Source: Rhizobacter sp. (GTDB lineage: Bacteria > Pseudomonadota > Gammaproteobacteria > Burkholderiales > Burkholderiaceae_C). From it: 34,631 bases of DNA. Each line of letters opens with the position of its first letter. Positions within the stretch are counted from its first letter, which is position 1. The translations under genes and the position numbers were made by a program. Shown one piece after another: positions 3,550-25,892 of the stretch. The stretch covers positions 1 through 34,631 of the forward strand of contig JADGRJ010000014.1 in NCBI GenBank assembly GCA_017881025.1. Direction: 5' to 3'. Below the pieces are notes generated by a model. The model was not told the origin of the DNA. It ran no database searches and saw nothing but the letters and a program-made list of their open reading frames with translations.

Positions 3550-5783
3550 CGATGCCGGTGGCGCACCCGCCGCTCCAGCGCAGCTCGATGCCGGCCGTGC
3601 CGTGGGCCGGCTCGCCGCTCGGCCGGCCACTGCGCCGCCTGCTCGGCCGTGGGCCGCGAGTTCCGAAACGGCGCGCCAGCGATGCGCGCCCGCTCATGCT
3701 GCGCAGGCTCGTGTTGCTCGTCCTCGTCCTCCTCGGCGCGTACGTCGGCACGCAGGCGATGGCCGAGGTGCTGCCCGAGCGCGGCGCGGCGCTGGCCGAG
3801 CGTGGCCTGCTCGTCCTCTTCGGCATCCTCTTCGCCTGGATCTCGGCCGGCTTCTGGACCGGCGTGATGGGCGCGGGCGTGCTTCTCTTCGGCCGCGGTG
3901 GCAGCCCGCTCATGCGCGGCCTCGCCAGCGAGCCGCTGCGGCCGCTCGATCCGGCGGCGCGAACGGCGATCGTGATGCCGATCTGCAACGAGCACGTTCC
4001 GACGGTCTTCGGCGGCCTCGCGGCGACGATCGACTCGCTGGTCGCGACCGGCGAATCGGAGAACTTCGACGTCTACGTGCTGAGCGACACGTCCGACACC
4101 GACATCCGCGCCGCCGAGCACGCGGCCTGGAGCGAGCTCGCCGGCCGCATCGCCGCCGACAGCTCCGGCGAGAGCCCGGCGTTGCAGGTCCACTACCGCT
4201 GGCGCCAGCAGCGCGTCAAGAGGAAGGCCGGCAACGTCGCCGACTTCTGCCGCCGCTGGGGTGACGCCTACCGCTACCTCGTCGTCCTCGACGCCGACAG
4301 CGTCATGACCGGCGAGTGCCTGACGACACTGGTGCGGATGATGGAAGCGCACCGCGACGCCGGCATCATCCAGACCGCGCCGCGCGCGGTCGGCCACGAG
4401 ACGCTGCACGGCCGCGTCCAGCAGTTCTCGGCGCGCGCCTACGGGCCGCTCTTCACCGCCGGCATGCGCTTCTGGCAGCTCGGCGAATCGCACTACTGGG
4501 GCCACAACGCGATCCTGCGCATGGCGCCGTTCATGGCCCACTGCGCGCTCGCGCCGCTGCCGGGCGACGGGCCGCTCTCGGGCGAGGTGATGTCGCACGA
4601 CTTCGTCGAGGCGGCGCTGATGCGCCGCGCCGGCTGGAAGGTCTGGGTCGCCGACGAGCTCGACGGCAGCTACGAGCAGGTGCCGCCGAACCTCCTCGCC
4701 GAGCTGCAGCGCGATCGCCGCTGGTGCCACGGCAACCTGCAGAACTCGCGACTGATGTTCGAGCCGCGCCTGCACGCGGTCCATCGCACGGCGTTCCTGA
4801 CCGGCGTCCTCGCCTATGCGTCGTCGCCGCTCTGGCTCGCGTTCCTCCTGCTGTCGACGCTGCTGTTCGCGCAGAACGCCGGCAACGATCCGACCTATTT
4901 CCCCGAGCCGTATCAGCTGTTCCCGGTCTGGCCGACCGCCAACGTCGCCCTGATGCTGACGCTGTTCGGCCTCACCGCCGTGCTGCTGCTCGCGCCGAAG
5001 GTGCTCGCGCTCGTCGCGTTGATCGAGTTTGTCCATTCGCTCCTGCTCGCGCCGGTGCGGATGCTCTTCCACAGCCAGTTCGTGCTCGCCGCGCTCACCG
5101 GCTGGCGCCTCGACTGGAAGTCGCCGCCGCGCGATGACGCCTCGACGTCATGGCGCGAAGCGGCCGCGCGCCACGGCGTCCACACCATCCTCGCGGTCGC
5201 CTGGATCACGGCGATCGTCGTCACCAGCGAGGCGTTCCCGTGGTGGCTGTCGCCGATCCTCGCCGGCCTGCTGTCGGCGATCCCGCTCTCGGTGTTGACG
5301 AGCCGGGTCAAGATCGGCCGCGCGCTGCGCCGCCGCGGCCTGATGCTGACACCGGAAGAGAGCCGCGAGCCGCGCGTCCTGCAGGAAGCACGCCGCGCCG
5401 GCGCGGCGGTCGCCGCCCGCCTCGCGACGCTGCGCGCCGCGGTCGCCGATCGCAGCGTCCAGCGGCGCGTCGTCGCCGCGCTGCCGGCGCGCCAGCCGCC
5501 GCGCGCCGCCAAGGCCGACGCCGAAGCGGGACGCATCGAGCGGGCGCTGCGCGACGGACCCGAGGCGCTCGTTGGCGACGACGGCTTGCGCCTTCTCTCG
5601 AGTCGTTCCGCGCTCGCCGTCCTGCACCGTGAAGTCATCGCCCGTCGAGCCCATCCCGATTGGTGGCGCGGGCAGGAGGACGTGGTGGCCGACCACGCGC
5701 CGACCTTGCCGATGGCGCAGTGGCCCGACGAGTCCGACGCCGCGAGCGGCTTGAATCGCGAGCCCGCAACCGAGCCGCTTTGA
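3546..5783 (+). CDS. opgH: Glucans biosynthesis glucosyltransferase OpgH (MdoH)
   Basis: This inner-membrane family-2 glycosyltransferase polymerises glucose from UDP-glucose into the OPG backbone and exports it. The 745-residue product has two N-terminal membrane segments (around residues 54-70 and 85-115) and a cytosolic GT2 domain starting TAIVMPICNEH. The nucleotide/metal site LVVLDADS is near residues 245-252 and the QRDRRW processivity motif at 388-393. Several further membrane helices follow, then an Arg/Ala-rich cytosolic tail. It is somewhat shorter than the E. coli protein (about 850 residues), mainly at the N-terminus. The start ATG lies inside the opgG stop (ATGA). The track's 966-residue version only extends the frame backwards through opgG. 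Confidence 0.95.
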   Translation: MTMPVAHPPLQRSSMPAVPWAGSPLGRPLRRLLGRGPRVPKRRASDARPLMLRRLVLLVLVLLGAYVGTQAMAEVLPERGAALAERGLLVLFGILFAWISAGFWTGVMGAGVLLFGRGGSPLMRGLASEPLRPLDPAARTAIVMPICNEHVPTVFGGLAATIDSLVATGESENFDVYVLSDTSDTDIRAAEHAAWSELAGRIAADSSGESPALQVHYRWRQQRVKRKAGNVADFCRRWGDAYRYLVVLDADSVMTGECLTTLVRMMEAHRDAGIIQTAPRAVGHETLHGRVQQFSARAYGPLFTAGMRFWQLGESHYWGHNAILRMAPFMAHCALAPLPGDGPLSGEVMSHDFVEAALMRRAGWKVWVADELDGSYEQVPPNLLAELQRDRRWCHGNLQNSRLMFEPRLHAVHRTAFLTGVLAYASSPLWLAFLLLSTLLFAQNAGNDPTYFPEPYQLFPVWPTANVALMLTLFGLTAVLLLAPKVLALVALIEFVHSLLLAPVRMLFHSQFVLAALTGWRLDWKSPPRDDASTSWREAAARHGVHTILAVAWITAIVVTSEAFPWWLSPILAGLLSAIPLSVLTSRVKIGRALRRRGLMLTPEESREPRVLQEARRAGAAVAARLATLRAAVADRSVQRRVVAALPARQPPRAAKADAEAGRIERALRDGPEALVGDDGLRLLSSRSALAVLHREVIARRAHPDWWRGQEDVVADHAPTLPMAQWPDESDAASGLNREPATEPL

Positions 5784-5819
5784 CCCGTCGATCGCCTTTC
5801 GGGTAAGGTCGGCGCGCCG

Positions 5820-5839
5820 GGCGACGCGAGCGCGTCGCC
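5820..5839. other. Hairpin between opgH and the CoA-binding gene
   Basis: GGCGACGC-GAGC-GCGTCGCC is a perfect 8-bp stem with a tetraloop in the 66-bp gap after opgH, ending 10 nt before the next ATG. It lacks a T-run, so it may be a weak terminator, a transcript stabiliser or an element affecting the next start. The sequence alone does not decide. Confidence 0.4.
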
Positions 5840-5849
5840 GCTGCGCTGC

Positions 5850-6311
5850 ATGGCCGACGACATCGCGACCCTTCGCCGCATCCTGCGCACGAGCCGGACG
5901 ATCGCCGTCGTCGGTCTGTCGGCCGAATGGCACCGGCCGAGCTACTTCGCCGCCAAGTACATGCAGGAGCACGGCTACCGGATCATCCCGGTCAACCCGC
6001 GCTACACCGAGGTCCTCGGCGAGCGCTGCCACGCGTCGCTGGCGACGATCGACGTGCCGGTCGACATCGTCGACGTCTTCCGCCGCACCGAGGACGTGCT
6101 GCCGATCGCCGAGCAGGCGATCGCGATCGGCGCGAAGTGCCTGTGGCAGCAGATCGGCGTCAAGAACGAGGCGGCGGCCGCGCTCGCCGCCGGCGCCGGG
6201 CTCGACGTCGTCATGGACCGCTGCGTCAAGATCGAGCACGCGCGCCTGTTCGGCGGCCTCAACTGGGCCGGCGTCAACACCGGCGTGATCTCGGCGCGCC
6301 GACCCGTCTGA
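5850..6311 (+). CDS. CoA-binding (YccU/COG1832-type) domain protein
   Basis: A 153-residue single-domain Rossmann-fold protein of the CoA_binding family. The N-terminal nucleotide-binding strand and loop reads IAVVGLSAEWHRPSY, followed by GYRIIPVNPRY. Further family segments are VDIVDVFRRTEDVLPI, CLWQQIGVKNEAA and the C-terminal VMDRCVKIEHARL. Members bind CoA or a related nucleotide and are often linked to acyl or redox metabolism; no enzymatic reaction can be assigned. It starts with ATG 5850 and has no strong Shine-Dalgarno. It lies 33 bp upstream of metY on the same strand and is probably co-transcribed with it. Confidence 0.85.
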   Translation: MADDIATLRRILRTSRTIAVVGLSAEWHRPSYFAAKYMQEHGYRIIPVNPRYTEVLGERCHASLATIDVPVDIVDVFRRTEDVLPIAEQAIAIGAKCLWQQIGVKNEAAAALAAGAGLDVVMDRCVKIEHARLFGGLNWAGVNTGVISARRPV

Positions 6312-6344
6312 ACGACGGCACTCACCGACCGAACGAAGCTCGTC

Positions 6345-7646
6345 ATGCCCGACCACCGCTTCCAGCCCGAGACGCTCGCGATCCACGCCGGCCAGATCCC
6401 CGACGCCGCGACCGGAGCGCGCGCGTTGCCGATCTACCAGACGACGAGCTTCGTCTTCGACAGCGCCGACCACGCCGCGAGCCTGTTCAACCTGCAGACC
6501 TTCGGCAACGTCTACTCGCGCCTGTCCAACCCGACCGTCGCCGTCCTCGAGGAGCGCGTCGCCGCGCTCGAGGGCGGCCGCGCCGCGCTGGCGTCAGCGA
6601 GCGGCATGGCGGCCGAGGCGATGGCGCTCTTGACGCTGCTGCAGCAGGGCGACCACGTCGTCGCGGCCGGCGCGCTCTACGGCGGCAGCGTCAGCATGCT
6701 CGCCGTCAATCTGGCCAGGCTCGGCATCGAGACGACCTTCGTCGACGCGAGGTCGATCGACGCCTTCGCCGCGGCGATGCGGCCGACGACGCGCGCCGTC
6801 TTCGCCGAAAGCCTCGGCAACCCGAGCCTGCAGGTGCTCGACATTGCCGCCGTCGCCGCAGTCGCGCACGGGCACGGGGTGCCGCTCGTCGTCGACAACA
6901 CGGTGCCGTCGCCGTTCCTGTGCAACCCGATCCGTTTCGGCGCCGACATCGTCGTCCATTCGGCGACCAAGTACCTCGGCGGCCACGGCACGACGCTCGC
7001 CGGCGTGATGGTCGAAAGCGGCCGCTTCCCGTGGGACAACGGCAAGTTCCCGGGGATGACCGAGCCGTCGAAGGGCTACCACGGCGTCAGGTTCTTCGAG
7101 ACCTTCGGCGACTTCGGCTTCACGATGCGCGCGCGCATGGAGACGCTGCGCGTCTACGGTGCCGCCCTCGCGCCGACGAGCGCCTGGCAGATCTTGCAAG
7201 GCATCGAGACGCTGCCGCTGCGCATGGAGCGCCATTGCGCCAACGCCCTCGCGGTCGCGCGCTTCCTCGAGGCGCATCCGCGCGTCGGCTGGGTCAACTA
7301 CCCGGGCCTGCGCGAGCATGCGGATCACGCGCTCGTCGCCAGGCAGATGCGAACGGTGGGCGAGACGCCGGGCGCATCGGGCCTGCTCGCGTTCGGCGTC
7401 AAGGGCGGCCTCGCCGCCGGCGTCCGCTTCATCGAGGCGGCGCAGCTCATGAGCCACCTCGCCAACATCGGCGACACGCGAACCCTCGTCATCCATCCGG
7501 CGTCGACGACGCATCGCCAGCTCGACGAGGCGCAACAGCTCGCGGCCGGCGTGGCGCAGGACATGGTGCGGATCTCGGTCGGCCTCGAGCACGTCGACGA
7601 CATCCTCTGGGACATCGACCAGGCGCTCGCCGCCGTGGCTGCCTAG
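6345..7646 (+). CDS. metY: O-acetylhomoserine sulfhydrylase (O-acetylhomoserine aminocarboxypropyltransferase)
   Basis: A PLP enzyme of the Cys/Met metabolism family that forms homocysteine from O-acetylhomoserine and sulfide (direct sulfhydrylation). The 433-residue length fits MetY better than the shorter (roughly 380-400 residue) cystathionine enzymes. Diagnostic segments are the N-terminal ETLAIHAGQ, YQTTSFVF, YSRLSNPT, LVVDNTVPSPFLCNPI and the Schiff-base lysine in HSATKYLGGHG (K209). The C-terminus has the family LVIHPASTTH followed by VRISVGLEHVDDI. MetY-type length and the FPGMTEPSKGYHG insert argue against cystathionine gamma-synthase. It follows the CoA-binding gene closely and precedes the TM2 protein by 18 bp. 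Confidence 0.94.
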   Translation: MPDHRFQPETLAIHAGQIPDAATGARALPIYQTTSFVFDSADHAASLFNLQTFGNVYSRLSNPTVAVLEERVAALEGGRAALASASGMAAEAMALLTLLQQGDHVVAAGALYGGSVSMLAVNLARLGIETTFVDARSIDAFAAAMRPTTRAVFAESLGNPSLQVLDIAAVAAVAHGHGVPLVVDNTVPSPFLCNPIRFGADIVVHSATKYLGGHGTTLAGVMVESGRFPWDNGKFPGMTEPSKGYHGVRFFETFGDFGFTMRARMETLRVYGAALAPTSAWQILQGIETLPLRMERHCANALAVARFLEAHPRVGWVNYPGLREHADHALVARQMRTVGETPGASGLLAFGVKGGLAAGVRFIEAAQLMSHLANIGDTRTLVIHPASTTHRQLDEAQQLAAGVAQDMVRISVGLEHVDDILWDIDQALAAVAA

Positions 7647-7664
7647 CTTCTCCGCAGCGAACCG

Positions 7665-9080
7665 ATGTCGCCCCCACCGAGCTCCGTTCCGGCGCCGGTG
7701 GCGATCGCGCCGCAGCGCGAGGACAGGCGCCTCAAGGCGCTCGGTCTCGTCCTGCTCGCCGCCGGCGGTGCCTGCCTGGCCTGGCTCTCGAACCATCTGA
7801 GCGTTGAGTGGCCGGTCTCGCCGGCGCGTTTCGCCGTGTTCGCGGCGATCTGCGTGATGGCGGCGAACCTGCTCGCGGTCGGCCTCCTCGTCCTTGCCGC
7901 CGGTTGCGGCAAGACCCACTCGGCGAGCGCGCCGGGCCGCCGTCGCGCTGCCGTACTGCTGCGCATCGTCCTCGCCAACGTGCTCGCGCCCGCTGTGCTG
8001 TTCACGATCATCAGCCAGGATCCCGAGCTCGCTGCCGAGGCCGAGCGGCAAGGCTGGGACGCGTGGGTGGCGGGCATTTCGGCCGCACTGCTCGTGATCG
8101 GGTGGCGCCTGTGGCGGCGCAGCCGGCAGTACGGCGCGCTCGGCGCCGACGAGGCGATGGCGCGCGACCGGCGCGCGCCTGTGCTCTATCTGCGCTCTTT
8201 CGTCGACGATGGCGAGGCGGTCATCGACGGCAGCGTCTCGGCGCTGGTCCGGCGCGGCACGAAGATCTTCGCTCCCGTCACTCCCGAGCAGGAGATGGCG
8301 GAGATCCTCGCCCACGTCGGCCCCGTGGTGGCGATCGGCAAGCCCGGCGAGCCGTTGCCCGAGCTCGGCGCGGCGCGGCTCTACGTCTCCGACGACCAAT
8401 GGCAAGCCAAGGTCATCGAGCTGATGGACAAGGCCGCGCTGGTCGTGATCCGGCTCGGCGCTTCGCCCGGGCTGCTCTGGGAAATCGAGCAGTCGCTCGA
8501 AAGGCTGCCGCGGCGGCGGATCATCTTCGCCGTCCTCGGCAGCGCGGCGCTCGCGCCCGCGCTCGCGGCACGCCTGGCCGCCGTTCTCGGCCCGACGTTC
8601 GAGCTCGTGCTGCCGCAGCCGGCCCCGGTCGGCTGGCTGGCCGCGCTGTACCGGGACCCGCGTCGTCGCATCGGCGGCTTCGTCTGCTTCGCCGCCGACG
8701 CCACCGCATGCGCCGTTCCGGTTCAACTCTGGCCCATGCACTGGCAGGACGTGCCTTATCTGGTGATGGCGCGACCTTCGGCCGCGCCGCTGCGTCGCGC
8801 CTTGCGCGAGGTCTTCGCCCGGCTCGAGCTGCCCGGCTCCGACAGCGCCGGCCGCTCCCGCGCGGTCGCCGCGCTTCTGGCGGTCTTCTTCGGCTGGTCC
8901 GGGGCGCACTGGTTCTATCTCGGCCGGCGCCGCCTGGGCGTGATCTACATCCTGACGATCCCGCTCCTGTTCGCGCCGCTCTTCCTCGGTTTCTGGGACG
9001 CCTTTCGTTTCATCTGGATCGATCGCGCCGAGTTCGACTCGCGTTTCTCCGCCCTCGGCAGCACCTCGCCCGGCGCGTAA
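7665..9080 (+). CDS. Multi-pass membrane protein with an RSFxDD cytosolic domain and a C-terminal TM2 domain
   Basis: I do not know a named function. The 471 residues begin with four predicted membrane helices (about 24-42, 55-80, 94-116, 133-150). A soluble alpha/beta region follows, starting APVLYLRSFVDDGEAV and containing ARLYVSDDQWQAKVIELM and then VVIRLGASPGLLWEIEQSL. That order of motifs resembles TIR/SEFIR-like or nucleotide-binding folds, but this is my inference. The C-terminus (about 400-455) is a TM2 domain: two hydrophobic helices around the signature GWSGAHWFYLGRRRLG and a following WDAFRFIWID. It starts 18 bp after metY and ends 27 bp before the acyl-CoA ligase, so it may be part of a longer transcript. 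No enzymatic residue can be assigned with certainty. Confidence 0.75.
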   Translation: MSPPPSSVPAPVAIAPQREDRRLKALGLVLLAAGGACLAWLSNHLSVEWPVSPARFAVFAAICVMAANLLAVGLLVLAAGCGKTHSASAPGRRRAAVLLRIVLANVLAPAVLFTIISQDPELAAEAERQGWDAWVAGISAALLVIGWRLWRRSRQYGALGADEAMARDRRAPVLYLRSFVDDGEAVIDGSVSALVRRGTKIFAPVTPEQEMAEILAHVGPVVAIGKPGEPLPELGAARLYVSDDQWQAKVIELMDKAALVVIRLGASPGLLWEIEQSLERLPRRRIIFAVLGSAALAPALAARLAAVLGPTFELVLPQPAPVGWLAALYRDPRRRIGGFVCFAADATACAVPVQLWPMHWQDVPYLVMARPSAAPLRRALREVFARLELPGSDSAGRSRAVAALLAVFFGWSGAHWFYLGRRRLGVIYILTIPLLFAPLFLGFWDAFRFIWIDRAEFDSRFSALGSTSPGA

Positions 9081-21709: not shown

Positions 21710-22129
21710 ATGCGATTCGAGCTGCCGGAAGCCAAGAAGCTCACGCTGGAGATGGTGATCCCGATCCGCTGGGGCGACATGGACGCGATGGGCCATGTCA
21801 ACAACACGATCTACTTCCGCTACCTCGAAATCGTTCGAATCGAGTGGCTGCACCAGGTCGCGGGGGCGCCGGATCCGGCGGGGGAGGGGCCGGTGATCGT
21901 CAACACCTTCTGCAACTTCCTGCGGCAGCTGAAGTATCCGGGGGACGTGTTGGCGAAGCACTACGTCGCGAACCCAGGGCGGAGCAGCTTCGAGGCGTAC
22001 GTCATCCTCGAGCGCACTGACGAGAAGGGGGTGCTGTACGCGAGCGGAGGGGCGAAGACGGTGTGGGTGAATTATCGCGAGGGCAAGGCGGTCCCGCTGC
22101 CAGAGACGCTGAGGGCTCTCATCGCCTGA
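21710..22129 (+). CDS. Hotdog acyl-CoA thioesterase (4HBT/YbgC-like)
   Basis: A 139-residue single hotdog-domain protein. The catalytic region reads RWGDMDAMGHVNNTIYFRYLEIVRIEW, in which the Asp and the surrounding GHVNN are conserved in 4-hydroxybenzoyl-CoA-type thioesterases. It likely hydrolyses acyl-CoA esters; chain preference is unknown. It is the last gene of the SDR-yceH-thioesterase cluster. Its stop marks the point where the low-GC island starts, and a truncated kinase/receiver frame on the other strand overlaps the last 58 nt. The start ATG 21710 has only a weak Shine-Dalgarno. Confidence 0.88.
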   Translation: MRFELPEAKKLTLEMVIPIRWGDMDAMGHVNNTIYFRYLEIVRIEWLHQVAGAPDPAGEGPVIVNTFCNFLRQLKYPGDVLAKHYVANPGRSSFEAYVILERTDEKGVLYASGGAKTVWVNYREGKAVPLPETLRALIA

Positions 22130-22653
22130 GAAGTGGAACGCACCCAATGCTGTAGCTTAGGTCTGAGATCGCTTAGGGAGTATGGCTTCGCGAGGAAGTC
22201 GTCCATCCCCGCAGCAAGGCATTTTTCGCGATCTCCTGCCAGCGTGTTAACGGTGACAGCGATGATGGGGGTTCGCCGCTTGGACCTCCGCCCCTCTGAT
22301 CGTCTAGTGGCGCGAGTCGCGTCATATCCGTCCATCACCGGCATCTGGCAATCCATCAGGATGACGTCGAACTCTTGTCGTTCGAGGGTCTCGACCGCGA
22401 TAGCCCCGTTTTCGGCGGTGACGACTTCGAATCCGATCGCCGCCCCAAGCGAGATATGCACAGGCATTTCGCCGCCAAGTGTGTGGACGAGCTGCTTGAC
22501 GATCGACAAACCGAGCCCTGTGCCACGCGACGCAGCATCTCCATCATGGCGCCGCTGACATAAGGGAAGGAAGACCTTCTCTAGCTCGACCTCGCCGATC
22601 CCGCAACCAGAGTCACTGACGCGGATGTCGAGACTTGCGCACGGCAGACATAG
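22072..22653 (-). pseudogene. Remnant of a hybrid histidine kinase: HATPase piece fused to a receiver lacking its first strand
   Basis: One open frame with no proper start codon. It begins LDIRVSDSGCGIGEVELEKVF, then RGTGLGLSIVKQLVHTLGG: these are the G1 and G2 boxes of a histidine-kinase ATPase domain, but the N box and everything before are gone. After GGEMPVHISLG it jumps directly to GFEVVTAENGAIAVETL and EFDVILMDCQMPVMDGYDATR, a receiver domain with its phospho-Asp, yet lacking the first strand and its acidic pair. The receiver ends near KPYSLSDLRPKLQHWV. The frame then runs into antisense of the thioesterase gene, so the native end was lost. It differs from the intact kinase at 23988, so it is not a recent duplicate. 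Confidence 0.8.
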
Positions 22654-23186
22654 TCAAAATCGAATCCGCTCTTTTGGGGTCGCTCGGAATCGGACGTCGA
22701 CCCGAGGGTGGCTAGCCCGAGGTCGTGCGCAAGCTTCAGCATCGAATCAACGATGCAAGAAAGTCGAAGATCCGTGGACGCCCTCTGCACAAAATCTTCC
22801 TCGAAGCGGAGGGCCTCTACGGGCTCGGCACTGATCGCGCTAAGGGGAGTACTGGCATCAACTTGGTCGAGCAGGACACCGAATTTCTCATTTCTAAGGA
22901 TCGCTGGGTCCAAGGCCAACAGAGTCTTGTAGTCAAGTGCTAGGCACACGTGTGCACACGAAGAGAAATCGCGAGACTGAGAGATCGCCTTGGCTAGGTC
23001 GCGGGGCAAGGAGGAGGCAAAGCCGGCGATGACGAACGCCGGTTGAGATCCCTTGAGCCTTCCGAGGGCCCGGTCGAGTTCGGCCTCCAGTCGACCTTCC
23101 CCGAACTCCAGACCGCAGACCTCGATACCGCACCGGGATGAGTCGGCCGTGGATTCCCAGCGGACGATGCGCGTCGTCTTCTTCAT
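22581..23186 (-). CDS. Degenerate EAL-like domain protein, C-terminus probably truncated
   Basis: A 201-residue protein with no Walker motif or other catalytic signature. The segment FGVLLDQVDASTPLSAIS, then VEALRFEEDFVQRAS and SIVDSMLKLAHDLGLATLG-like text, follow the order of the C-terminal half of an EAL (cyclic-di-GMP phosphodiesterase) domain. The metal-binding DD pair is DQ here, the catalytic Lys position reads Arg-Phe-Glu, and the late Glu is replaced, so phosphodiesterase activity is unlikely. A sensing or scaffold role is a guess. The last about 15 residues are read out of frame from the kinase remnant, so the end may be lost. I chose ATG 23186; TTG 23198 is possible. It starts 36 bp after the synthase stop on the same strand, likely one operon. 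Confidence 0.55.
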   Translation of the reverse strand: MKKTTRIVRWESTADSSRCGIEVCGLEFGEGRLEAELDRALGRLKGSQPAFVIAGFASSLPRDLAKAISQSRDFSSCAHVCLALDYKTLLALDPAILRNEKFGVLLDQVDASTPLSAISAEPVEALRFEEDFVQRASTDLRLSCIVDSMLKLAHDLGLATLGSTSDSERPQKSGFDFDYVCRAQVSTSASVTLVAGSARSS

Positions 23187-23222
23187 GGCCCAGCGCAATC
23201 CTGAGCCGATGAGACGTTTCGA

Positions 23223-23927
23223 CTACGTCCAGTCGAAGACTGAAAGTACGTAGTCCCAATCGATTTCGATGTCGGGATGCTCGGTCTTGGACATGAAGTC
23301 GTAATACCAATGCTGCGCTGCTCGAAGTCGCGCCTCGAACTCGCGAACGGGCATGACGAAAATCCAATGCGGAATGTCGTTCCCGAACGATATCGGAAAG
23401 GGACCGCCCTCCAGCTCGTCGTACTGGAGAGCCCGAAAGAATTGGACCATCGAGCGGCGGCCGCCGGTGATGTTGAAGTCCGCAGCGGTGGTGTAGCAGA
23501 TTTCGTAAGTGGCCTTGACCAAGGCGGCGGTGACCATCTTGCTGGTTCCTCCGAGGTCCACGCCGAGACGGGTACTTTCGATAAGACGATTGCCGGTGAA
23601 GGATGCCAAGAGTGGCGCCTCGCCTTCCAGCCGAAGTGGTCGGATGACGTTCGACTGAAGCCGAAGCGTACCGAGCGGCTGCGCGTCGAGCTTTCTTTCG
23701 GCAAGTAGGACAAGCACATCTGACTTCAGATCCTCAGCTTCGGGCGTCCGCAATATCTGCCCCAAGGAGGGCATGTGGCGTGCGTACGCGGAGGACCTGA
23801 CTTCGACCGCTTTGGCCAGATCTTGAGGAGTAGTGACGACACGGACCGTGAACGGCAGGCGCTCAACCCGATCCGGTGCAACCGAATAGGCTTTGGAAGA
23901 AGGTCGGGAAACGCTTAGCTGATTCAA
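23223..23927 (-). CDS. FeeM-like N-acyl amino acid synthase (GNAT/autoinducer-synthase fold)
   Basis: A 234-residue acyltransferase-like protein. FeeM-type enzymes take a fatty acyl chain from acyl-ACP and attach it to an amino acid. The family pattern is visible: R-x-x-AYARHMPSLGQ (near 44-56), VLLAERKLDAQPLGTLRLQ (73-91), the conserved ESTRLGV (117-123, E117/R120), the long helix LVKATYEICYTTAAD and the terminal HWYYDFMSKTEHPDI. A LuxI-type signature is absent. The start is TTG at 23927 with no clear Shine-Dalgarno; it is the only start codon in frame before an upstream stop, and overlaps the end of a 21-codon frame (ATTGA). It is divergent from the hybrid kinase by 60 bp. The acyl donor and amino acid are unknown. 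Confidence 0.72.
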   Translation of the reverse strand: MNQLSVSRPSSKAYSVAPDRVERLPFTVRVVTTPQDLAKAVEVRSSAYARHMPSLGQILRTPEAEDLKSDVLVLLAERKLDAQPLGTLRLQSNVIRPLRLEGEAPLLASFTGNRLIESTRLGVDLGGTSKMVTAALVKATYEICYTTAADFNITGGRRSMVQFFRALQYDELEGGPFPISFGNDIPHWIFVMPVREFEARLRAAQHWYYDFMSKTEHPDIEIDWDYVLSVFDWT

Positions 23928-23989
23928 TTTGCGGAGAGAGTGCCGATATAGACGTACTCGTCAAGCAGGCCTTCGACGACAGAATGCAT
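23924..23989 (-). CDS. Possible 21-residue leader peptide coupled to the FeeM-like gene
   Basis: ATG at 23989 opens a short frame ([21 protein letters not shown]) ending in a TGA that overlaps the TTG start of the synthase (ATTGA). The start lies in an ATGCAT palindrome shared with the kinase ATG on the other strand. Coupling of this peptide with the synthase is possible. It may also be chance, or the original N-terminus displaced by a frameshift. Confidence 0.3.
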
Positions 23990-25892
23990 GTCGATCAATC
24001 GAATCCTTCACAGCTGGCGACGTTTCGGCGTTCGCCCTTTCCGCGATCGTGAACTAGAGCACGAATTTCGCCACGTCTTCCGATCGGCCGGGGTGCGCTC
24101 GTTGGAAGTGGCGACAGGTGTCGGCGGCCTGGCATTTCTTGGCTTCTTTCTAATCTACGCGCTGGCGGGGAAGACTGCCGCTTTCGCGCAACCCCAGCCC
24201 ATTCGCTTGGCGATGGTCGTAGCGCTCTTGTCCGGCGCTGCGCTAATTCGCTTTAGGCGTCATTTCGTTGCTAGGCACTATGAGTGGATATGCAGTTCGA
24301 TTGCTGTCGTCTGCATCATTTGTACCTCAGTCATCGGCAGCCTGAACCAAGTGGATGAGTCACCGTACTCTCGGTACTGGGCGATCTTCTCCGCCGCAGT
24401 TTTCATTACCGGAATCATATATGGCTTCACGAGACTGTCGCCCCTCACGACTATCCTGCTCGCGCTCCTCAACGCAGGGCTAGCTATCTGGTTCGCACTA
24501 CGCCATGGCGGAGATGCGGCGGTGATGCAGCGGCTAGTCGTGCATTTAGGCGGCATCAATTTCATGTGCTACGCCTTGTACCGCGTCATCAGCATCAGAG
24601 AGCGGAAGCTCTTCCTGAAGGTAAAACGTCAGCGCAGCATCAACGAACTCAAACGCGCCAGAGACCGCGCGGAGGAGGCGAGTCGGGCAAAGTCCGCCTT
24701 TCTGGCCAATATGAGCCACGAGATTCGTACGCCCATGAACGGGATCATCGGCTCGCTGGCCCTTCTCGAATGCACGGATTCCGAGGCTCGACGTCGAACA
24801 CTTACCGCTGTGGCGCGCCAGGCCGCTGATGGCCTCCTGCAGACTTTGAATGAGATCCTGGACTACGCGAAGTTAGATGCGAAGGGCGGTTCGTTGCACT
24901 TGGCCCCGCTTGATATCCGCCGCGTGTGCCAGGTTGCCGTGCAGACGTTTCAAGCCAATGCGATCGCTAAGGGAATCGCGCTCAAATTCGATCCATTCCA
25001 CTTGCCTTCAGACGTGGCGATAGTCCAAGGTGACGAAGAGAAGCTTCGCCGCATCATCATGAACTTGGTAAGCAATGCCATCAAGTTCACGGCCGTCGGT
25101 GGCGTCACCGTCCGTCTGCGCGGAGCGCGAACTACACAGGGGGTCCGCCTAATCGTCCGGATTGCCGACACCGGCATAGGCATTGCCGCCGACAAGATTC
25201 CGCTCCTGTTCGACCCGTTCTTCCAAGTTGAGTCAGGGATGTCGCGGAGTTACGGCGGCACCGGGCTGGGCTTGGCGATCTCGCGTCAGCTGGCCCATGT
25301 GATGGGAGGCACGGTGCGAGTGCGCAGCACCCTCGGTCGGGGCAGTGTCTTCACTGTGCGCCTCTTGCTACCGGAAAGTGTCGAGAACTGGGTGCCCGCG
25401 CCGCTCGACGTGCCGCTGCCCCACCGTGCGCTTGCTGCCGCGCGCGGCAAGACGGTCTTGCTTGTCGAAGACAACGCGGTGAATGCTTTCATCTCGGCTG
25501 CGTCTCTGGAAACGATGGGTGTTGCGTCGGTCCACGCAAGCAACGGTAAAGAGGCCGTGGATCTGTTCCAAGAGCGGCGCTTCGACGCCGTACTGATGGA
25601 TTGCGAAATGCCAGTCATGGACGGATTCGCGGCGACCAGACTCATTCGCGATCATGAGGCGCTCACTGAGGCTCCTCGGACGCCGATCATTGCGCTTACG
25701 GCCAACGCCCTCAGTGGTGATCGCGAGCATTGCTTGCGCCAAGGGATGGACGACTACCTCAGCAAGCCCATCGAGTTGCGCCAGCTGAGCTTGCTTGTTG
25801 CCAAGTGGCTCGGCAACCAGCGCGCAGCGGCCAACGCGGAAAGTTCCGAGCCGAAAGCGCAAGACGCCGTGGCTGCAGCTCGAGCAGCCTAA
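23988..25892 (+). CDS. Hybrid sensor histidine kinase/response regulator with a six-helix membrane sensor
   Basis: A 634-residue inner-membrane kinase. Six predicted helices (about 44-62, 73-88, 101-117, 130-147, 153-170, 182-200) form a compact sensor with almost no periplasmic domain, as in CqsS- and LqsS-type receptors. A charged helix (204-238) leads to HisKA with His244 in [11 protein letters not shown]. The ATPase domain has N box ([12 protein letters not shown]), DTGIGI and GGTGLGLA. A receiver follows from about 487: acidic E494/D495 in LLVEDNAVN, phospho-acceptor D538 in [10 protein letters not shown], and K593 in LSKP. There is no Hpt or output domain, so a separate partner is needed. 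ATG 23988 has no good Shine-Dalgarno. The divergent FeeM-like synthase suggests it may sense its product; that is inference. Confidence 0.93.

Follow-up and report, generated by a model that had tools for sequence, protein, structure and literature searches.

A FeeM-type synthase gene beside a membrane sensor in Rhizobacter and related bacteria: a candidate N-acyl amino acid signalling unit

The window analysed here, the whole 34,631-nucleotide stretch of contig JADGRJ010000014.1 of Rhizobacter sp. (GenBank assembly GCA_017881025.1), carries a candidate FeeM-type N-acyl amino acid synthase gene and, divergent from it, a hybrid histidine kinase gene. The locus raises the question of whether the products of these two genes form one signalling unit, the enzyme making the signal and the kinase sensing it, or whether the genes are neighbors for some other reason. 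We consider the first answer probable (about 0.62). It is carried by the computed fold and active-site conservation of the synthase, by its near-universal and reciprocal pairing with sensor proteins, by co-divergence, and by receptors specific to synthase clades. The features of the pair are as follows.

23223..23927, minus strand: FeeM-type N-acyl amino acid synthase (signal synthase candidate), 234 amino acids, assigned from fold, motifs, and conserved residues
23928..23987, no strand: shared divergent intergenic region of 60 bp between the two start codons
23988..25892, plus strand: hybrid histidine kinase, candidate receptor, 634 amino acids, with a transmembrane sensor (residues ~1 to 225), HisKA (His244), HATPase_c, and a receiver (Asp538)
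23988..24660, plus strand: HK_I sensor domain, of a rare family present in 9 of the 301 genomes surveyed from the window's family

These coordinates bear out the 60-bp gap and divergent arrangement described in the original prediction. TTG is the sole start codon available in the upstream portion of the synthase frame. The segments from which a FeeM-like acyltransferase had been called, ESTRLGV and YYDFMSKTEHPDI, are present at residues 117 to 123 and 208 to 220, respectively. R44, Y48, D66, R89, and R120 were invariant in the synthase alignment and E117 was near-invariant; this residue, which opens the ExxR motif, was at least 90% conserved among 18 members and invariant among 76. A Glu has been shown to be essential in Nas354 (PMC4897644), and E117 of the window synthase would, as matched by the ExxR motif, be its counterpart. 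PF21926 (FeeM) was the recurrent Pfam family, matching 15 of 18 synthase homologues (best E value, 1.9e-12), and its cut-off of 27 bits was passed by homologue L028 (38.2 bits) as well as by L036, L040, L041, L142, and L149. No match to an N-acyl-homoserine lactone (AHL) synthase family was found at an E value of ≤0.01 among the 18 members in Pfam or NCBIfam.

Searching the PDB by sequence with the single synthase returned no match, and the profile version returned only spurious matches to repeat proteins. An AlphaFold2 model was built on 76 aligned sequences, with a mean predicted local distance difference test score (pLDDT) of 90. Using Foldseek, it was found that the six best PDB matches of this model were all chains of FeeM (2G0B; E value, 2.8e-10; target-normalised TM-score, 0.75), with an identity of approximately 16% in the structural alignment. 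Next in the list was the coenzyme A-dependent AHL synthase BjaI, with MesI, RpaI, TofI, EsaI, and others further down. As the sequence searches of the PDB were uninformative, it was this fold search that settled the identity of the synthase: acyltransferases were returned, FeeM first and AHL synthases next, as the original prediction had anticipated. The assignment of the window synthase to the FeeM-type enzyme class and fold is well supported.

The kinase contains HisKA, HATPase_c, and receiver domains, with His244 and Asp538 as the expected phosphoacceptors; no Hpt domain or DNA-binding output was recognised C-terminally, in agreement with the earlier description. Its N-terminal ~190 residues form five or six hydrophobic helices (at the Kyte-Doolittle threshold, five in the window protein and six in the congener protein at L031) and include no large extracytoplasmic domain. 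The compact sensor proposed earlier stands, with its six helices becoming five to six, and its resemblance to the CqsS/LqsS type is one of architecture. The sensor region had no match in Pfam or NCBIfam or among PDB sequences. No family with a known ligand was matched. The genes flanking the pair in the window include none recognised as a response regulator with an output domain. No sigma-70-like site was found in the 60-bp intergenic region, and scans for promoters and terminators scored nothing that clearly exceeded chance. The divergent pair was seen in four of the five congeners examined (L028 to L031) and is thus not a chance arrangement of open reading frames.

To find relatives, a profile of the synthase family was run over 301 genomes from the GTDB family to which the window belongs, of which 82 were matched. 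A scan of genome contigs with the window synthase alone found no relative, and in a class-wide genome sample the window's own genome was the sole match to the synthase. The resulting survey, centred on the window's family, took in 94 synthases, of which the family sample supplied 89 and further congeners and relatives in the order the other 5. A sensor protein adjoins 88 of the 94. The commonest partner, beside 51 synthases, is a protein of ~1,000 amino acids with 7TMR-DISM-like, PAS, GGDEF, and EAL domains; a histidine kinase adjoins a further 37 (9 HK_I, 25 HK_II, and 3 other), and 6 synthases adjoin neither kind of partner, 2 of them lying near contig ends. For comparison, 39 HisKA matches in the window genome, with ~4,000 genes assumed, give an approximately 2% chance of a kinase neighbor. 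The survey of homologue neighborhoods therefore upheld the conservation of the pair, with a revision: the proposed circuit of a synthase beside a membrane sensor was retained, but the kinase is only one of three unrelated main partners, of which the GGDEF-EAL protein is the commonest.

In an independent pattern scan, 79 of the 81 synthases of named loci were found to adjoin a GGDEF-EAL protein. Four Paraburkholderia replicons, including one of P. phymatum STM815, carry the same pair; in annotated Paraburkholderia records the synthase is listed as "hypothetical protein" and its partner as "EAL domain-containing protein" or "hypothetical protein." The pairing is kept in convergent, tandem, and divergent layouts, with most pairs convergent, and thus is not an effect of a shared promoter.

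Some loci departed from the one-to-one arrangement. At L160 (positions 5739 to 7687) and L078 (4933 to 6881), two diverged tandem synthase genes stand beside one GGDEF-EAL receptor, an arrangement that might provide two signals for one receptor. In two closely related genomes (G061 and G267, loci L093 and L097), the synthase has no recognised sensor alongside and is a natural orphan.

The relationship also held when the search was begun from the sensor side. The seven-transmembrane (7TM) sensor domain of the GGDEF-EAL partner was found in 49 of the 301 genomes; all 49 have a synthase, which is adjacent in 48, and in the remaining genome synthase and sensor lie on separate contigs. The HK_I sensor was found in nine genomes, all nine of which have a synthase, adjacent in seven. 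For HK_II, 22 of the 24 best sensor matches adjoin a synthase, and lower-scoring relatives are scattered among other kinases. Overall, the sensor domains are almost wholly confined to synthase-carrying genomes, with the synthase genes linked to them, and we infer that the linked sensor is the dedicated receptor of the synthase product.

Common ancestry of the HK_I, HK_II, and 7TM sensors was tested and no sequence relationship among them was detected; thus, the pairing has been made with unrelated receptors. Partner type is consistent with the synthase tree, requiring 8 changes compared with 38.7 in shuffles. HK_I synthases are united in a single clade (support, 99), HK_II synthases are grouped in another (support, 100) together with a few members that have no partner or another kinase, and GGDEF-EAL-type synthases are spread over the remainder of the tree. 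This spread is compatible with the GGDEF-EAL partner being ancestral, in a tree whose root is not established.

Co-divergence was examined in 100 GGDEF-EAL pairs. Given the GGDEF and EAL domains carried on the same polypeptide as the sensor, synthase distance correlated with sensor distance with a partial r of 0.54 to 0.58 (permutation P = 0.001), whereas the output domains, given the sensor, added less (0.04 to 0.25). In an independent set of 24 HK_II pairs, the partial r was 0.48 (P = 0.001) for the sensor versus 0.06 for the kinase core. Such sensor-specific co-divergence is what matching of ligand and receptor predicts, and it supports a relation of that kind. A model of the 7TM sensor (from L151, 9620 to 10801, minus strand, and homologues; pLDDT, 88) consists of a beta-sandwich and a 7TM part; by fold it matches the periplasmic domain of RetS, and its membrane part matches Pfam 7TMR-DISM_7TM. 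There is also weak resemblance to human WLS (TM-scores near 0.3) and to TMEM87A. WLS is the 7TM carrier of lipid-modified Wnt, and the modelled likeness to it is only suggestive.

The mechanism and ALTERNATIVES would run from an N-acyl amino acid, once made, to an adjacent membrane sensor and on to a phosphorelay or cyclic di-GMP (c-di-GMP) output. The synthase, with its FeeM fold and Glu117 in the catalytic position, would acylate the amino group of an amino acid or a comparable amine. The resulting lipid-like compound would be perceived at, or within, the membrane through the five- to six-helix domain of the neighboring kinase, so that information would pass from synthase to sensor. Sensing would control the transfer of phosphoryl groups from His244 to Asp538 and then to an Hpt protein and response regulator encoded elsewhere. 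In most relatives, the synthase would instead be paired with a 7TM-PAS-GGDEF-EAL receptor and the signal would set c-di-GMP. A wider proposal is that N-acyl amino acids or similar amides act as cell-to-cell signals in Burkholderiales through three unrelated kinds of receptor, mostly with c-di-GMP output and otherwise with phosphorelays, that receptors have been exchanged, and that the kinase variant in the window keeps a relic of a GGDEF-EAL partner; we regard this fuller proposal as evenly poised between right and wrong.

Several observations weigh against a signalling unit. A conserved neighborhood and co-divergence would also be expected if the sensor regulated or physically contacted the synthase, and the effects of unequal evolutionary rates were incompletely removed from the distance correlations. 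The window synthase scored 19.4 bits against the FeeM cut-off of 27, as a divergent member. The HK_I sensor lies away from the synthase in two of its nine genomes (G005 and G255), and some HK_II-like sensors are found where the genome has no synthase. Known products of the FeeM family include surfactants and antibiotics as well (PMC4897644). In the main alternative, the neighbor would be an upstream regulator through which an envelope or environmental cue, via a phosphorelay or c-di-GMP, governs the making of N-acyl amino acids as surfactant, matrix lipid, or antibiotic. Conserved adjacency fits this account as well as it fits sensing, and PilZ-fused synthases (PMC4897644) are a precedent for sensor control of a synthase. 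However, the association of three unrelated sensors with one enzyme family is easier to understand if the ligand is the shared element, and most pairs are convergent and so have no common promoter. Control exerted through the output domains would predict the opposite of the pattern seen, in which the synthase co-diverges chiefly with the sensor and to a smaller extent with those domains. We therefore hold upstream regulation to be unlikely, though it deserves the most serious attention among the alternatives.

The nature of the product leaves room for another account, in which the pair makes and senses an AHL or some other non-amino-acid amide, as an AHL-like circuit with a membrane receptor. 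AHL synthases were the next best fold matches after FeeM, and an R...Y...D...R...ExxR pattern is common to both families. As FeeM ranked first by fold, PF21926 was present in most members, and the AHL synthase families went unmatched, we judge such a circuit improbable. A still smaller likelihood attaches to a synthase serving protein sorting or exopolysaccharide through a PEP-CTERM/exosortase system, with the kinase incidental. A link to exosortase has been published for some N-acyl amino acid synthases (Craig et al. 2011, as cited in PMC4897644 and PMC11072679), and genomes with a synthase carry exosortase slightly more often than the others (52 of 82, versus 109 of 219; Fisher P = 0.04). 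This role is disfavored because no exosortase (PF09721) match was found in the window genome (G000, 98.6% complete); none was found in the pair-carrying congeners G001 and G002 either, and only 26 of the 49 GGDEF-EAL-type genomes have one, a far weaker linkage than that to the sensor. Chance neighbors, conserved only by shared descent of the locus, would fit the partial conservation of the surrounding gene order within the window's genus. Chance pairing is nevertheless ruled out by the survey: partnership persists through dozens of genera, in various orientations and on various replicons, the receptors are of three unrelated kinds, and reciprocity is almost perfect.

A signalling unit of this kind would have known counterparts. 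In CqsA/CqsS, LqsA/LqsS, and PhcB/PhcS, the synthase gene is coupled with that of a kinase whose membrane sensor is compact and made up of several helices. The window pair resembles these systems in its synthase-linked kinase, in its compact multi-helix membrane sensor, and in the lipid-like signal expected of it, but its synthase belongs to an unrelated enzyme class (GNAT-like acyltransferases) and its sensor, which resembles theirs in architecture, matched no Pfam, NCBIfam, or PDB family. RetS and other 7TMR-DISM proteins share the extracytoplasmic fold and the type of membrane part seen in the GGDEF-EAL partner. We know of no signal synthase linked to RetS, whereas the 7TM sensor domain described here was found only in synthase-carrying genomes. 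RpfR is a soluble receptor of the PAS type, whereas the GGDEF-EAL receptors combine a beta-sandwich outside the cytoplasm with a 7TM domain, and the synthase beside them is FeeM-like rather than of the RpfF type. In the RpfF/RpfR system of Burkholderia cenocepacia, a fatty signal (Burkholderia diffusible signal factor, BDSF) has a receptor that acts on c-di-GMP turnover (PMC3703271), and in this it parallels the output expected for the commonest partner here. With FeeM and the N-acyl amino acid synthases, the window synthase shares its predicted fold, the position of the ExxR Glu, and, for most members of its family, PF21926; a link to c-di-GMP is also known, through PilZ fusion (PMC4897644). 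The difference is that a sensor protein nearly always adjoins the synthases examined here, and no dedicated membrane receptor was found described for FeeM types.

Signalling by synthase and receptor is already known, but a pairing of this breadth is apparently undescribed; no prior description of such a synthase-receptor pair was found in open-access papers. What bacterial N-acyl amino acids do in nature has been called unclear (PMC4897644). If the proposed unit is real, signalling would be one of their roles, nearly every synthase of this family would have a candidate receptor, and c-di-GMP would be the usual output. Paraburkholderia, Variovorax, Collimonas, Curvibacter, and Massilia are cultivable genera that carry these circuits. 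One enzyme family with three unrelated sensors would constitute a natural experiment in the recruitment of receptors to a ligand.

The locus also bears on how partners may have been exchanged. Two further features, outside the pair that was listed originally, lie downstream of the synthase.

22581..23198, minus strand: degenerate EAL-domain protein (dEAL), 205 amino acids, in tandem with and downstream of the synthase
22072..22653, minus strand: remnant of a second hybrid kinase, comprising the HATPase end and a truncated receiver, with the sensor and HisKA lost

The dEAL gene is present in six of the nine HK_I loci. Its homology to EAL domains was recognised via the copy in congener G004 (31.9 bits, compared with a cut-off of 31.3). 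A dEAL profile scored 17 to 56 bits (most above 35) on the EAL domains of synthase partners versus 11 to 23 on 18 other EAL domains of the genus; the reverse test, in which EAL profiles were scored on dEAL proteins, was uninformative. Inspection of the alignment showed that the catalytic EAL motifs are absent, and dEAL would be at most an inactive member of the EAL phosphodiesterases. It is probably a relic of an ancestral GGDEF-EAL partner that has since been replaced by the kinase. In G004, a GGDEF protein (L031, 7276 to 8466) adjoins the degenerate EAL gene, and c-di-GMP genes thus persist there next to a kinase-type pair.

In the second-kinase remnant, the HATPase end is fused to a receiver without its first strand, the gene having been broken by deletion. 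At the same place, L029 and L030 have longer kinases with a related sensor, split over two frames, and decay of this second kinase gene appears to be under way in several congeners. The window genome also has a second synthase-kinase pair on another contig (L034, G000:C107, 8917 to 11523); it is of the HK_II type and convergent, and the sensor of its kinase is unrelated to that of the window kinase. In congener G005 (L033, G005:C19, 5347 to 10222), an HK_II pair is flanked by thioesterase (hotdog) and CoA-transferase genes, as is the HK_I pair of the window, suggesting that HK_I and HK_II pairs have both occupied a single chromosomal site.
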